Shown one piece after another: positions 30,043 to 32,585 of a stretch of DNA of 64,000 nucleotides (positions are counted from its first letter, which is position 1; every line of letters starts with the position of its first letter). Source of the DNA: Pseudemcibacter aquimaris (lineage in GTDB: Bacteria; Pseudomonadota; Alphaproteobacteria; Sphingomonadales; Emcibacteraceae); NCBI RefSeq assembly GCF_028869115.1, contig NZ_CP079800.1:496001-560000 (forward strand), in the 5' to 3' direction. The notes below the pieces were generated by a model that worked only from the letters and a program-made list of their open reading frames with translations, made no database searches and was not told the DNA's origin. The position numbers and the translations under genes are program-made.

Positions 30043-30050
30043 TTTGATTA

Positions 30051-30081
30051 AAAAAGGCACCTTGAAAAGGGTGCCTTTTTT
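30051..30081. terminator. Bidirectional terminator after ppdK
   Basis: AAAAAGGCACC (30051-30061) and GGTGCCTTTTT form an 11-bp stem around an 8-nt loop, with T-runs on both strands. It can end ppdK on the plus strand and the small minus-strand gene whose stop is at 30085. Confidence 0.88.
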
Positions 30082-30084
30082 AAT

Positions 30085-30204
30085 TCAAGACACGGCGGCC
30101 AGAATAATGATAATGAGCAGGCCTGCCATAGCCATGGTAATAAGCAGTCTTTTGTCTTTTTGGCCTGATGATTTCTTCTTTTTGTTTCTGTGAAATTTAC
30201 TCAT
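30085..30204 (-). CDS. Small basic single-helix membrane protein, 39 aa
   Basis: Reading the minus strand from the ATG at 30204 gives 39 codons and a TGA. The product starts MSKFHRNKKKKSSGQKDKR (strongly basic) and continues as one membrane helix of about 17 residues (LLITMAMAGLLIIIILA). A good ribosome site (AGGGG, 5 nt before the ATG) and the terminator directly after the stop support it as a gene. I do not recognise a family. The positive-inside pattern predicts a cytosolic N-terminus. It could be a small regulator or subunit of a membrane complex; nothing in the context shows which. Confidence 0.6.
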   Translation of the reverse strand: MSKFHRNKKKKSSGQKDKRLLITMAMAGLLIIIILAAVS

Positions 30205-30409
30205 TTCGTCCCCTACAATATTTGCCGTTTTCTTCGATTCATCTTAGCGCAATATTGCCCACTTCAGCAAGAACTGGTCAGATATCACATCTTTTTGATA
30301 GTTGTTAATTAATATGGTTAACGCGAAGGTTGTGATAAACTCTTAAAAATCAATAACTTATAATGGTGGTGTTGTCTTGTTTAGATAATTTCACAATTGT
30401 TTCATGAAA

Positions 30410-30426
30410 TTGGCACGCCCGTTGCA
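30410..30426 (+). promoter_or_regulatory. Sigma-54 (RpoN) promoter, near-perfect
   Basis: TTGGCACGCCCGTTGCA matches the consensus TTGGCACG-N4-TTGCA at every defined base. The invariant GG (30412-30413) and GC (30424-30425) are separated by 10 bp, as required for the -24/-12 elements. Transcription would start near 30437 and give a 95-nt leader to the ATG at 30532. The enhancer-binding protein is not identifiable here. Confidence 0.7.
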
Positions 30427-30455
30427 AATAGCCCTTGCAAACTGTTATCGATTAG

Positions 30456-30493
30456 TTAATATGTCGTTAACAAAATATTAACAAATAGTTAAC
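30456..30493 (+). promoter_or_regulatory. Three overlapping CtrA-type boxes (four TTAA, 11-bp period)
   Basis: TTAA occurs at 30456, 30467, 30478 and 30489, so each neighbouring pair forms TTAA-N7-TTAA, the consensus for the alphaproteobacterial cell-cycle regulator CtrA; the last three are TTAAC. A -10-like TAAAAT at 30500-30505 lies 16 bp after TTAACA (30478-30483), the usual geometry of CtrA-activated promoters. Confidence 0.65.
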
Positions 30494-30531
30494 GCTATTT
30501 AAAATACGAAGTATTTAAGGGATTAGAGAGT

Positions 30532-30909
30532 ATGTTTAAGAAAGCTATCACATCAGGTATCAGTATTTTAGCTTTAATGATCACAATGATAACTTCTGCC
30601 AATGCATCTTTACATGCAAGCATTCCAACATTTGAAGACCAGCAAAAATTTGATCTCGCATATTATGAGAACAAAGAAAACCGTTGTCTTCAGGCTTTTG
30701 CGCAATCTGAATTTGAAATGGCATTTTCAATTTGTACGCCGCTTGCAAACCTTGGTTTTAAGGATGCACAGTTGATCACTGGTCTTTTATATGCATATGG
30801 TGAAGGCGTTGATAAAGATTTACGCCGTGCGAAAATCTGGTTAACAGAAGCGCTTAAAAATGGCCGCGAAGATGCTGCGGATGCTCTTACCCAATTTGGT
30901 CTTAACTAA
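30532..30909 (+). CDS. Secreted Sel1-like repeat protein
   Basis: A 125-residue protein with a signal peptide (about residues 1-26, cleavage after SANA) and Sel1/TPR-like helices: AFSICTPLANLGFKDAQLITGLLYAYGEGVDKDLRRAKIWLTEALKNGREDA matches the A-x-x-x-G-x-x-Y-x-x-G-x-G-V-x-x-D-x-x-x-A pattern of a Sel1 repeat. Two Cys (in NRCLQAF and FSICTPL) may form a disulfide. Such proteins usually act as periplasmic adaptors. The combination of a sigma-54 promoter and CtrA-type boxes upstream suggests cell-cycle or flagellum/polar-development-linked expression. No partner is evident. Confidence 0.85.
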   Translation: MFKKAITSGISILALMITMITSANASLHASIPTFEDQQKFDLAYYENKENRCLQAFAQSEFEMAFSICTPLANLGFKDAQLITGLLYAYGEGVDKDLRRAKIWLTEALKNGREDAADALTQFGLN

Positions 30910-30941
30910 TTCAAAAAAATAAAGCTGTACATTAATCAGCG

Positions 30942-30979
30942 AAGCTCTTAAATTCCGGCGAGTTTAAGAGCTTTTTTTA
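30942..30979 (+). terminator. Terminator after the Sel1-like gene
   Basis: AAGCTCTTAAA (30942-30952) and TTTAAGAGCTT (30963-30973) form an 11-bp stem with a 10-nt loop and a following T-run. It separates the Sel1-like gene from prfC, whose ATG is 17 nt downstream. Confidence 0.85.
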
Positions 30980-30995
30980 TATTTAGAGAAAATGA

Positions 30996-32585
30996 ATGTC
31001 CCAACTTGAGACAGAGGTAAACAGACGCAAGACATTTGCGATTATTGCCCACCCTGATGCCGGTAAAACCACACTGACAGAGAAGCTACTTCTTTTCGGT
31101 GGTGCGATCCAAATGGCGGGTGAGGTAAAAGCGCGCGGTGACCGCAGACGTGCTCGTTCCGACTGGATGAAGGTCGAGCAAGAACGCGGAATTTCTGTGG
31201 CGTCGTCTGTGATGTCATTTGAATATGAAGGACGTATGTTCAACCTGCTTGATACACCTGGGCATGAGGATTTTTCTGAAGATACGTACCGGGTGTTAAC
31301 GGCGGTGGATAGCGCCGTGATGGTTCTGGATAGTGCGAAGGGTGTTGAGGGCCAGACAAAGAAGCTTTTCGAAGTATGTCGCCTGCGTGATATGCCTGTT
31401 ATTTCATTCTTTAACAAAATGGACCGCGAAGCACTGGACCCGTTTGAGCTTCTTGATAATCTTGCTGATACATTGGCGCTTGACGTTGCGCCGGCCACAT
31501 GGCCAATCGGTATGGGACGCGATTTTAAAGGGTGTTATGACCTTATCAATGACAGGTTGATCCTGATCGAACGATCAAAAGGCGATCTGCCTGATGAAGG
31601 AACCGTCTGCGAAGGGGTGGATGATCCGAAATTAAATGAATTACTGCCTGCTGATTTGGTTGAGAAACTTCGTGAAGATGTGGAGATGGTTCGTGAACTG
31701 TGCCCTGAATTTGATGCTAAGGCTTATCAGGAAGGGACATTGACGCCAGTTTTCTTTGGTAGTGCGATTAACACATTTGGCGTGCGGGAATTGCTGGACG
31801 GTCTTACTGAACATGCACCGACACCAGGCACATATGGCACCCAGAGCCGCGATGTTGATGCCCATGAAACAAAAATGAGCGGTTTTGTATTTAAAATTCA
31901 AGCCAACATGGATCCAAAACACCGTGACCGTATTGCGTTTTTCAGAATGGTTTCTGGCAAGTTTAAGCGGGGAATGAAGCTTAAACACGTCAGAAGCGGC
32001 AAGACGGTTAATCTGCATAATCCGGTACTTTTCCTAGCACAGGACCGTGAACTGGCCGAGGAAGCATGGCCGGGCGATATTATCGGTATTCCAAACCATG
32101 GCAACTTACGCATTGGTGATAGTCTTTCAGAAGGTGAAGAATTAAAATTCACCGGTATTCCAAGCTTCGCACCGGAACATATCCAAACGGTGCGTGCAGA
32201 AGATCCAATGAAAGCAAAACACCTTTCCCGTGCACTTATTCAGCTAGCGGAAGAGGGGGCAGCCCGCGTGTTTAAACCGACTATCGGTGCCGAATGGTAT
32301 GTGGGTGTAGTTGGTATGCTGCAATTCGAAGTGATGGCAGACCGTATCAGAACCGAATATGACGTTCCGTGCCGTTTTGAAACGACATCGCTATATACGG
32401 CGCAATGGGTCGAATCGGATGATCAATTTAAGCTAAAGAAATTTGTCGATGCTAATAAGGCTAATATGGCTGAAGATCATAATGGTTCACCTGTATTTTT
32501 AGCACGAAATTCGTGGCGACTTGATAAAGCGATAGAAGAAAATCCGGATATTCGCTTCTTAAAAACCAAAGAACAAACAATTTGA
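30996..32585 (+). CDS. prfC: Peptide chain release factor 3
   Basis: RF3 is the translational GTPase that recycles RF1/RF2. The 529-residue product has G1 AHPDAGKTTLTEKLLLFGGAIQMAGEV, the switch I region RARSDWMKVEQERGISV, G3 DTPGHEDFSEDTYR and G4 FNKMDREA. Downstream domains with VRAEDPMKAKHLSRALIQLAEEGAARVF and the C-terminal WRLDKAIEENPDIRFL fit the family. Normal length. Its promoter is not obvious; it may rely partly on readthrough of the preceding terminator. Confidence 0.97.
   Translation: MSQLETEVNRRKTFAIIAHPDAGKTTLTEKLLLFGGAIQMAGEVKARGDRRRARSDWMKVEQERGISVASSVMSFEYEGRMFNLLDTPGHEDFSEDTYRVLTAVDSAVMVLDSAKGVEGQTKKLFEVCRLRDMPVISFFNKMDREALDPFELLDNLADTLALDVAPATWPIGMGRDFKGCYDLINDRLILIERSKGDLPDEGTVCEGVDDPKLNELLPADLVEKLREDVEMVRELCPEFDAKAYQEGTLTPVFFGSAINTFGVRELLDGLTEHAPTPGTYGTQSRDVDAHETKMSGFVFKIQANMDPKHRDRIAFFRMVSGKFKRGMKLKHVRSGKTVNLHNPVLFLAQDRELAEEAWPGDIIGIPNHGNLRIGDSLSEGEELKFTGIPSFAPEHIQTVRAEDPMKAKHLSRALIQLAEEGAARVFKPTIGAEWYVGVVGMLQFEVMADRIRTEYDVPCRFETTSLYTAQWVESDDQFKLKKFVDANKANMAEDHNGSPVFLARNSWRLDKAIEENPDIRFLKTKEQTI

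Follow-up and report, generated by a model that had tools for sequence, protein, structure and literature searches.

In Caulobacter, CtrA and sigma-54 belong to successive regulatory tiers: CtrA turns on rpoN and flbD, and the flagellar class III/IV promoters use RpoN together with FlbD (PMC6180460). Tandem promoters are described for the Caulobacter ctrA gene itself, where CtrA represses the upstream promoter P1 and activates the downstream promoter P2, with the activating TTAA repeat overlapping the -35 of P2; the same source describes four CtrA sites at Caulobacter pilA, one at -35 and the others upstream (PMC11264516). A different sigma-54 system is that of PrsK-PrsR: Haft and colleagues described a 17-nt motif 1 ending TTTACA upstream of proteobacterial PEP-CTERM genes, placed 32-92 nt before a sigma-54 core and predicted to be bound by PrsR (PMC1569441). 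Among other published work, PMC11999139 describes an RpoN3-driven repressor of ctrA, and PMC4287350 describes promoters with several regulatory motifs that may include CtrA-plus-RpoN cases. A promoter shared by CtrA and sigma-54, or by CtrA and the PEP-CTERM system, was not recognised in the open-access literature searched.

Here, predicted CtrA and sigma-54 sites meet on one short leader, upstream of a gene for a Sel1-like protein in Pseudemcibacter aquimaris (the window is the whole stretch of 64,000 nucleotides that was analysed, from a genome of 3.37 Mb). We read the region, with a probability of roughly 55%, as a tandem sigma-54/CtrA promoter that is old in the family and whose probable input by PrsR seems lost in the window species. 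The tandem layout resembles that of Caulobacter ctrA. The differences are that the leader found here has four boxes phased at exactly 11 bp and precedes a Sel1-like gene, and that the Caulobacter P1 is GcrA-activated and not described in PMC11264516 as sigma-54-dependent. As at pilA there are several CtrA-type sites with one at -35, but the pilA sites are irregularly spaced (PMC11264516), whereas those found here form an overlapping head-to-tail array that follows a sigma-54 core.

Layout of the promoter region

The regulatory region is AT-rich (about 30-34% GC) and bounded by a small divergent ORF and the Sel1-like gene. Its features are:

30085 to 30204, minus strand: small ORF of 39 aa (MSKFHRNKKKK...) that points away from the Sel1-like gene and has, by eye, a single hydrophobic span
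30410 to 30426, plus strand: sigma-54 -24/-12 element TTGGCACGCCCGTTGCA, with correct GG-N10-GC spacing and a predicted start at about 30437
30456 to 30470, plus strand: TTAA boxes 1-2 (TTAATATGTCGTTAA), within the predicted sigma-54 initially transcribed region
30467 to 30481, plus strand: TTAA boxes 2-3, the second overlapping TTAA-N7-TTAA
30478 to 30493, plus strand: TTAA boxes 3-4 (TTAACAAATAGTTAAC), which may form a full CtrA site at the -35 of P2
30478 to 30505, plus strand: sigma-70-like promoter P2, TTAACA - 16 nt - TAAAAT, with a predicted start at about 30512
30499 to 30502, plus strand: fifth TTAA, overlapping the -10, at a 10-bp step from box 4 (TTAA-N6-TTAA)
30532 to 30909, plus strand: gene of the Sel1-like protein (125 aa; signal peptide apparent by eye; C52 and C68 conserved)
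30941 to 30974, plus strand: terminator-like hairpin, then a T run, 3' of the Sel1-like gene (1 found against 0.8 expected)

The 39-aa ORF has a similar ORF in five of six genus relatives; in the sixth, L011, the contig ends before the ORF. Further TTAA are found by direct reading at 30515 and, upstream, at 30305, 30309, 30318 and 30343.

The preliminary description of this DNA had called the -24/-12 element a near-perfect RpoN match, and it is in fact an exact one, TTGGCACGCCCGTTGCA having 0 mismatches to the consensus YTGGCACGNNNNTTGCW. Direct reading also confirms the TTAA at 30456, 30467, 30478 and 30489 in exact 11-bp steps and the -10-like TAAAAT 16 bp past the third box (TTAACA at 30478-30483, TAAAAT at 30500-30505). 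The sigma-54 pattern has one exact match in the window, which is the element at 30410-30426, and eight matches at two mismatches or fewer (4.5 expected). The genome-wide scan for RpoN sites that had been suggested returned four exact matches, window element included; at one mismatch or fewer it gave 21 matches, a weak excess over the 16 of the reversed pattern.

TTAA-N7-TTAA by itself shows no enrichment in the window (four found, 3.14 expected), but three of the four are in this leader. The genome has three places with runs of three boxes, a frequency that the reversed control equals (4 forward, 4 control). The exact four-box run, which consists of two overlapping three-box runs, is found only in the window within the whole genome, and about 0.01-0.05 such runs per genome are expected by chance (estimated by hand from 500 TTAA per 64 kb). 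The -35/-10 pair at 30478-30505 has 10 of 12 matching positions and is the best of six sigma-70-like matches in 30050-31000, where 3.0 are expected from shuffles.

In Caulobacter, a full TTAA-N7-TTAA most often starts near -35 (PMC4287350). The candidate CtrA full site of boxes 3-4 starts at about -34 relative to the predicted P2 start and is followed by the -10, which is the layout of a CtrA-activated promoter relative to that predicted start. Relative to the predicted P1 start, boxes 1-2 span about +20 to +34, and they are upstream of P2, so that phosphorylated CtrA (CtrA~P) on them should help P2 and hinder P1. We thus propose that two promoters in tandem serve the gene of this apparently periplasmic Sel1-like protein: P1 would be a sigma-54 promoter with its -24/-12 at 30410-30426 and its start at about 30437, and P2 a CtrA-dependent sigma-70 promoter starting at about 30512, with boxes 3-4 at the Caulobacter-type activating position. 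CtrA~P on boxes 1-2 would help to load the P2 site and hinder P1, as at ctrA P1/P2; that CtrA hinders P1 is put forward tentatively and is, in our judgement, somewhat doubtful.

The same box positions can be read the other way. Boxes 4 and 5 lie in the P2 spacer and on its -10, and CtrA~P could therefore shut P2, and P1 as well, so that CtrA would mainly be a repressor and the gene be expressed when CtrA is low. In Caulobacter, CtrA at -35 plus -10 represses hemE Ps, and added CtrA sites reduce and delay pilA (PMC11264516). However, boxes 3-4 also occupy the activating -35 position, and no box was clearly found, by eye, on a -10 in the relatives; we regard a mainly repressing CtrA as rather unlikely.

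Conservation of core, boxes and dyad in the Emcibacteraceae

We compared the upstream DNA of 21 orthologues from the family (E <= 9e-15; weaker Sel1 paralogues were ignored), corrected for orientation and with starts chosen by eye; with the window, this makes 22 upstreams. Both elements recur, as the preliminary description had wished to see examined. The sigma-54 core, TGGC-N7-TTGC, was found in all upstreams but L006, L014 and L026 (19 of 22), and the core of the window is closer to consensus than that of most relatives. An exact TTAA-N7-TTAA in the leader, defined as the sequence between the core (or the last 100 nt) and the start codon, is found in seven of the 22 (window, L006, L008, L009, L011, L012 and L021), where shuffles give an expectation of 0.47. 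Among the nine relatives outside the g3 group, N7 occurs in six and every other spacing in 0-2; L007 and L010 (g1) have one altered box each, and in L013 the spacing is N8. No relative has more than one exact TTAA-N7-TTAA, compared with the four boxes in register of the window, and none of the 12 g3 relatives has one in the leader.

A side observation concerns the g3 relatives: 11 of the 12 (L014-L020 and L022-L025) have, at about -175 and directly next to the dyad region, a pair of the form TTAAC-N6-TTAA or TTAAC-N6-TAAA, preceded by a conserved TCCCAAAATGAAACA-like stretch.

Five relatives have both core and pair. Counting from the C of the -12, their first box begins 14-20 nt further on, which corresponds to about +3 to +9 relative to the predicted sigma-54 start (about +20 in the window). 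This is downstream of the predicted P1 start, so that, by geometry, CtrA would sit in the path of P1. The upstream of genome G001 (L006) has a perfect pair, TTAACAAAAAGTTAAC, without a sigma-54 core, in a genome without a flagellin match; the boxes therefore do not depend on P1. A TTAA run that arose by chance in an AT-rich gap, beside a chance sigma-54 match, would fit the low GC of the region and the three-box runs that are no commoner than in the reversed control. This explanation is already contradicted by the recurrence of both elements at orthologues in aligned positions, and we consider it very improbable. P1 is very probably a true sigma-54 promoter in this lineage.

Upstream of the core, most relatives have a further element. 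Of the 22 upstreams, 16 contain an exact TGTA-N9/10-TACA dyad; 15 of these also have a core, always with 72-74 nt between it and the dyad. L012 has a near copy at 73 nt, and in L011 a second copy lies further up, a repetition also described for some PEP-CTERM genes (PMC1569441). No exact dyad was found upstream in the window, L013, L014, L021 and L026, and the best 17-mer of the window has four mismatches. The dyads of the six genus relatives are 17 bp long and end TTTACA in five cases and CTTACA in one (L007). With their 73-74 nt spacer, the core, and PrsR in most, these relatives resemble the PrsK-PrsR/sigma-54 promoters of PEP-CTERM genes as described in PMC1569441. The genus dyad fits the published PrsR motif and we infer that the two are the same. 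The ten g3 dyads are 18 bp long and end GATACA or GTTACA, and their identity with the published motif is thus less sure. Further differences to the PEP-CTERM promoters are the added TTAA boxes, a product with no PEP-CTERM tail evident by eye, and a window species in which dyad and PrsR were not found: the PrsR-regulon motif (17 nt, TTTACA end, 32-92 nt before a core) is absent in the window.

The distribution of PrsR was followed from G010, a genome with an orthologue, a perfect 17-bp dyad and an encoded PrsR (669 bits over a cut-off of 502.6), whose prsR lies in a run with genes of a histidine kinase and a TPR protein, by eye PrsK and PrsT. By similarity to this protein (at least 65% identity; other proteins 41% or less), PrsR is present in 14 of 19 family genomes; it was not seen in the window genome (four strong enhancer-binding proteins typed) and in G001, G002, G005 and G012, with proteins partly sampled. 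Of the seven dyad-bearing genomes with sampled enhancer-binding proteins, six have PrsR; the exception is G001, with a perfect dyad but no PrsR seen in the proteins sampled. The Sel1-like gene does not track PrsR strictly: G003, G006, G007 and G018 have PrsR and no orthologue, and G013, G016 and G017 have PrsR and the gene without an exact dyad at it. The dyad was also considered as the mark of a wide regulon and rejected as such: dyad-plus-core (gap 65-95 nt) occurs in 11 of 40 genomes, with 10 of 16 matches at the Sel1 gene and the other six compared with two for the reversed control.

We propose that in the family P1 was probably driven by PrsR from the dyad 72-74 nt upstream of the core; the ancestral sigma-54 input thus looks more like PrsR (PEP-CTERM/exopolysaccharide) than like a flagellar activator. 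The window species has neither the dyad nor, among its four strong enhancer-binding proteins, PrsR; its core is kept and its CtrA ladder is longer. On sequence grounds, we infer that PrsR would bind the dyad and CtrA the boxes, with activation of P2 and interference with P1.

Regulators and CtrA-type sites in the genome

The preliminary description had made dual control dependent on the presence of both regulators, and both are encoded. RpoN is present in one copy (PF04552 match, 223 bits) and CtrA is identified by NF045991 (414 bits over 350). CtrA is 74% identical over residues 1-228 in the search, and 75% by direct alignment, to a Caulobacter CtrA reference sequence; in the alignment the two share a 36-residue stretch and the DNA-binding region is near-identical.

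PF00158 has seven matches over the Pfam cut-off. Four of them are strong; the other three, with 26 bits or less, are weak (at default E-value, all 14 control genomes match too). Three of the four strong enhancer-binding proteins are NtrC (677 over 558.6), NtrX (727 over 600) and PspF (473 over 443.6). The fourth is unclassified, its best match being PrsR with 356, under the cut-off of 502.6. Neither PrsR (TIGR02915) nor FlbD (NF050807) was found over cut-off among these four; the FlbD model recognises the FlbD of G010 with 783 bits over 750. For comparison, the 12 flagellin-bearing family relatives counted have 7-11 strong enhancer-binding proteins.

The genes after the other three exact sigma-54 matches are those of a flagellin, P-II and a HlyD-type protein; the HlyD-type gene and that of the unclassified enhancer-binding protein diverge, and the longest ORF of the former starts before the sigma-54 element. 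By eye, TGTTCG/CGAACA-type repeats precede the sigma-54 cores of HlyD and MacB/FtsX-type genes (L047, L054 and L057), a possible small regulon of the unclassified enhancer-binding protein, with one locus divergent to its gene. Sigma-54-type elements also precede genes of a flagellin, FlgI and an FlgE/F/G protein, in a genome that has flagellins and in which FlbD was not found; another protein may thus act as activator. PspF was considered as the missing activator of P1 and rejected, with no dyad upstream of pspA in the window genome. A GGAATCTTTT stretch, noted by eye upstream of the sigma-54 cores at L045 (flagellin) and L050 (a gene without Pfam family), is a possible enhancer site in a genome without FlbD. 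Like the flagellar class III/IV promoters, which RpoN drives with FlbD (PMC6180460), the Sel1-like gene has a sigma-54 core, and its genome encodes flagellins and CtrA; it differs in that FlbD was not found in the window genome and that no GGAATCTTTT copy was seen, by eye, at its sigma-54 promoter.

The window species has an exact core without a recognised enhancer site, and P1 may thus be silent: the promoter would then depend on CtrA only, with a dead P1 and a perfect core left over from the time of PrsR and dyad. Dyad and PrsR are both missing from the window genome (with PrsR sought among the four strong enhancer-binding proteins), and G001 keeps its TTAA pair without a core. Against such a relic stands the core itself, which is exact and closer to consensus than in most relatives and thus argues for selection; moreover, other sigma-54-type elements stand before flagellar genes without FlbD, and another activator may serve here too. 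We consider a CtrA-only promoter unlikely, if a serious competitor, and give P1 an even chance of being active in the window species. Of the dual control by RpoN and CtrA that had been proposed, the presence of both regulators and the recurrence of both elements stand; a working sigma-54 promoter in this species is not supported, as the dyad is missing and none of the four strong enhancer-binding proteins reaches the cut-off for PrsR or FlbD.

The scan for TTAA-N7-TTAA across the genome, likewise suggested earlier, supports CtrA by placement of the sites. N7 spacing is not over-represented (57 matches, compared with 579 for N4-N11 together), and a genome-wide excess as proof of CtrA sites was rejected; placement is therefore used as evidence instead. 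The 57 matches to TTAA-N7-TTAAC on both strands correspond to 44 unique places (window array counted once), of which 37 are intergenic, meaning that no ORF of at least 100 aa lies over the site. Of the N6/N8 controls (all 23 such places among the matches listed, plus strand, first 1.34 Mb), five are intergenic (1/17 for N8, 4/6 for N6 alone; Fisher p about 8e-7 for N7 vs N6/N8, 1.7e-6 without the window). About 93% of the window is under some ORF of at least 100 aa, and 65 of its 500 TTAA lie outside. Twenty neighbouring proteins, picked by eye from 61, were scanned: families found are FtsZ, two flagellins, three GGDEF, PilZ, MCP, DUF2336, STAS, four PAS (one a histidine kinase, one with part of HisKA) and one further histidine kinase, and five of the 20 gave no family. 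The site of the DUF2336 gene is under an antisense ORF and was counted as inside, and several places adjoin, by eye, housekeeping genes without CtrA logic. By placement and neighbours, the TTAA-N7-TTAAC sites of the window genome resemble CtrA signals. One of the flagellin copies (G000:C1:1018281-1018691) reads with an internal TAG stop. Both elements also occur at a second gene, a GGDEF gene (G000:C1:700777-700953; L051, L080): a sigma-54 core with one mismatch and, about 105 bp upstream, a TTAA-N7-TTAAC.

OmpR-type regulators often bind direct repeats of about 11 bp, and the genome encodes eight other near full-length CtrA relatives, one of which could bind the boxes in place of CtrA. Yet TTAA-N7-TTAA(C) is the known CtrA motif, the DNA-binding region of CtrA is near-identical to that of Caulobacter CtrA and the genome-wide sites precede typical CtrA targets, which makes another OmpR-type regulator improbable. 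That the Sel1-like gene is a CtrA target we consider likely.

The Sel1-like product and its biological context

Pfam recognises one Sel1 repeat in the product (E 1.6e-5; 25.7 bits, below the cut-off of 30.7). The start is signal-peptide-like by eye, and the protein is apparently secreted or periplasmic; C52 and C68 are invariant in alignments of 18 and 16 sequences. The predicted structure has a mean pLDDT of 83.9, with block means of 89-98 from residue 41 on, and is a helical repeat. The top rows of the structure searches are mostly Sel1-repeat structures, headed in both lists by human DELE1, but all Foldseek matches have an E above 0.001, and the Z of 12-13 is within reach of helical repeats generally. 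The flagellar protein MotX was rejected as a homologue: chain 8z5n_C of a flagellar ring structure, which we take to be MotX, is a weak Foldseek row (rank 25, E 0.18), not distinguishable from Sel1 repeats generally, although the lack of a row would not in itself speak against homology.

The preliminary description had suggested a role in flagellum, pole or cell-division timing. Among the 24 family genomes searched for both, the gene and flagellin are present or absent together in 21 (Fisher p 0.0027, kinship uncorrected): 16 have both, G001 has the gene only, G006 and G018 have flagellin only and five have neither (G002, G003, G005, G007 and G012, the latter 53% complete). A link to the flagellum is thus retained only through this co-occurrence in one family and the company of CtrA-type genes; pole and division were not borne out.

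One scenario joining these observations, which we offer as speculation, is a hand-over of control: a PrsR/sigma-54 gene that lost PrsR would have passed to CtrA through an enlarged 11-bp ladder that drives a downstream promoter and gates the core, so that the level of CtrA would select the sigma factor. The family offers a natural series, with dyad, core and boxes in relatives, boxes and dyad in G001, dyad and core in g3, and core and boxes in the window, and this series serves the question of how a gene moves between regulators. The probable CtrA gene set of the Emcibacteraceae also gains a Sel1-like protein that is uncharacterised, apparently secreted and marked by two invariant cysteines.
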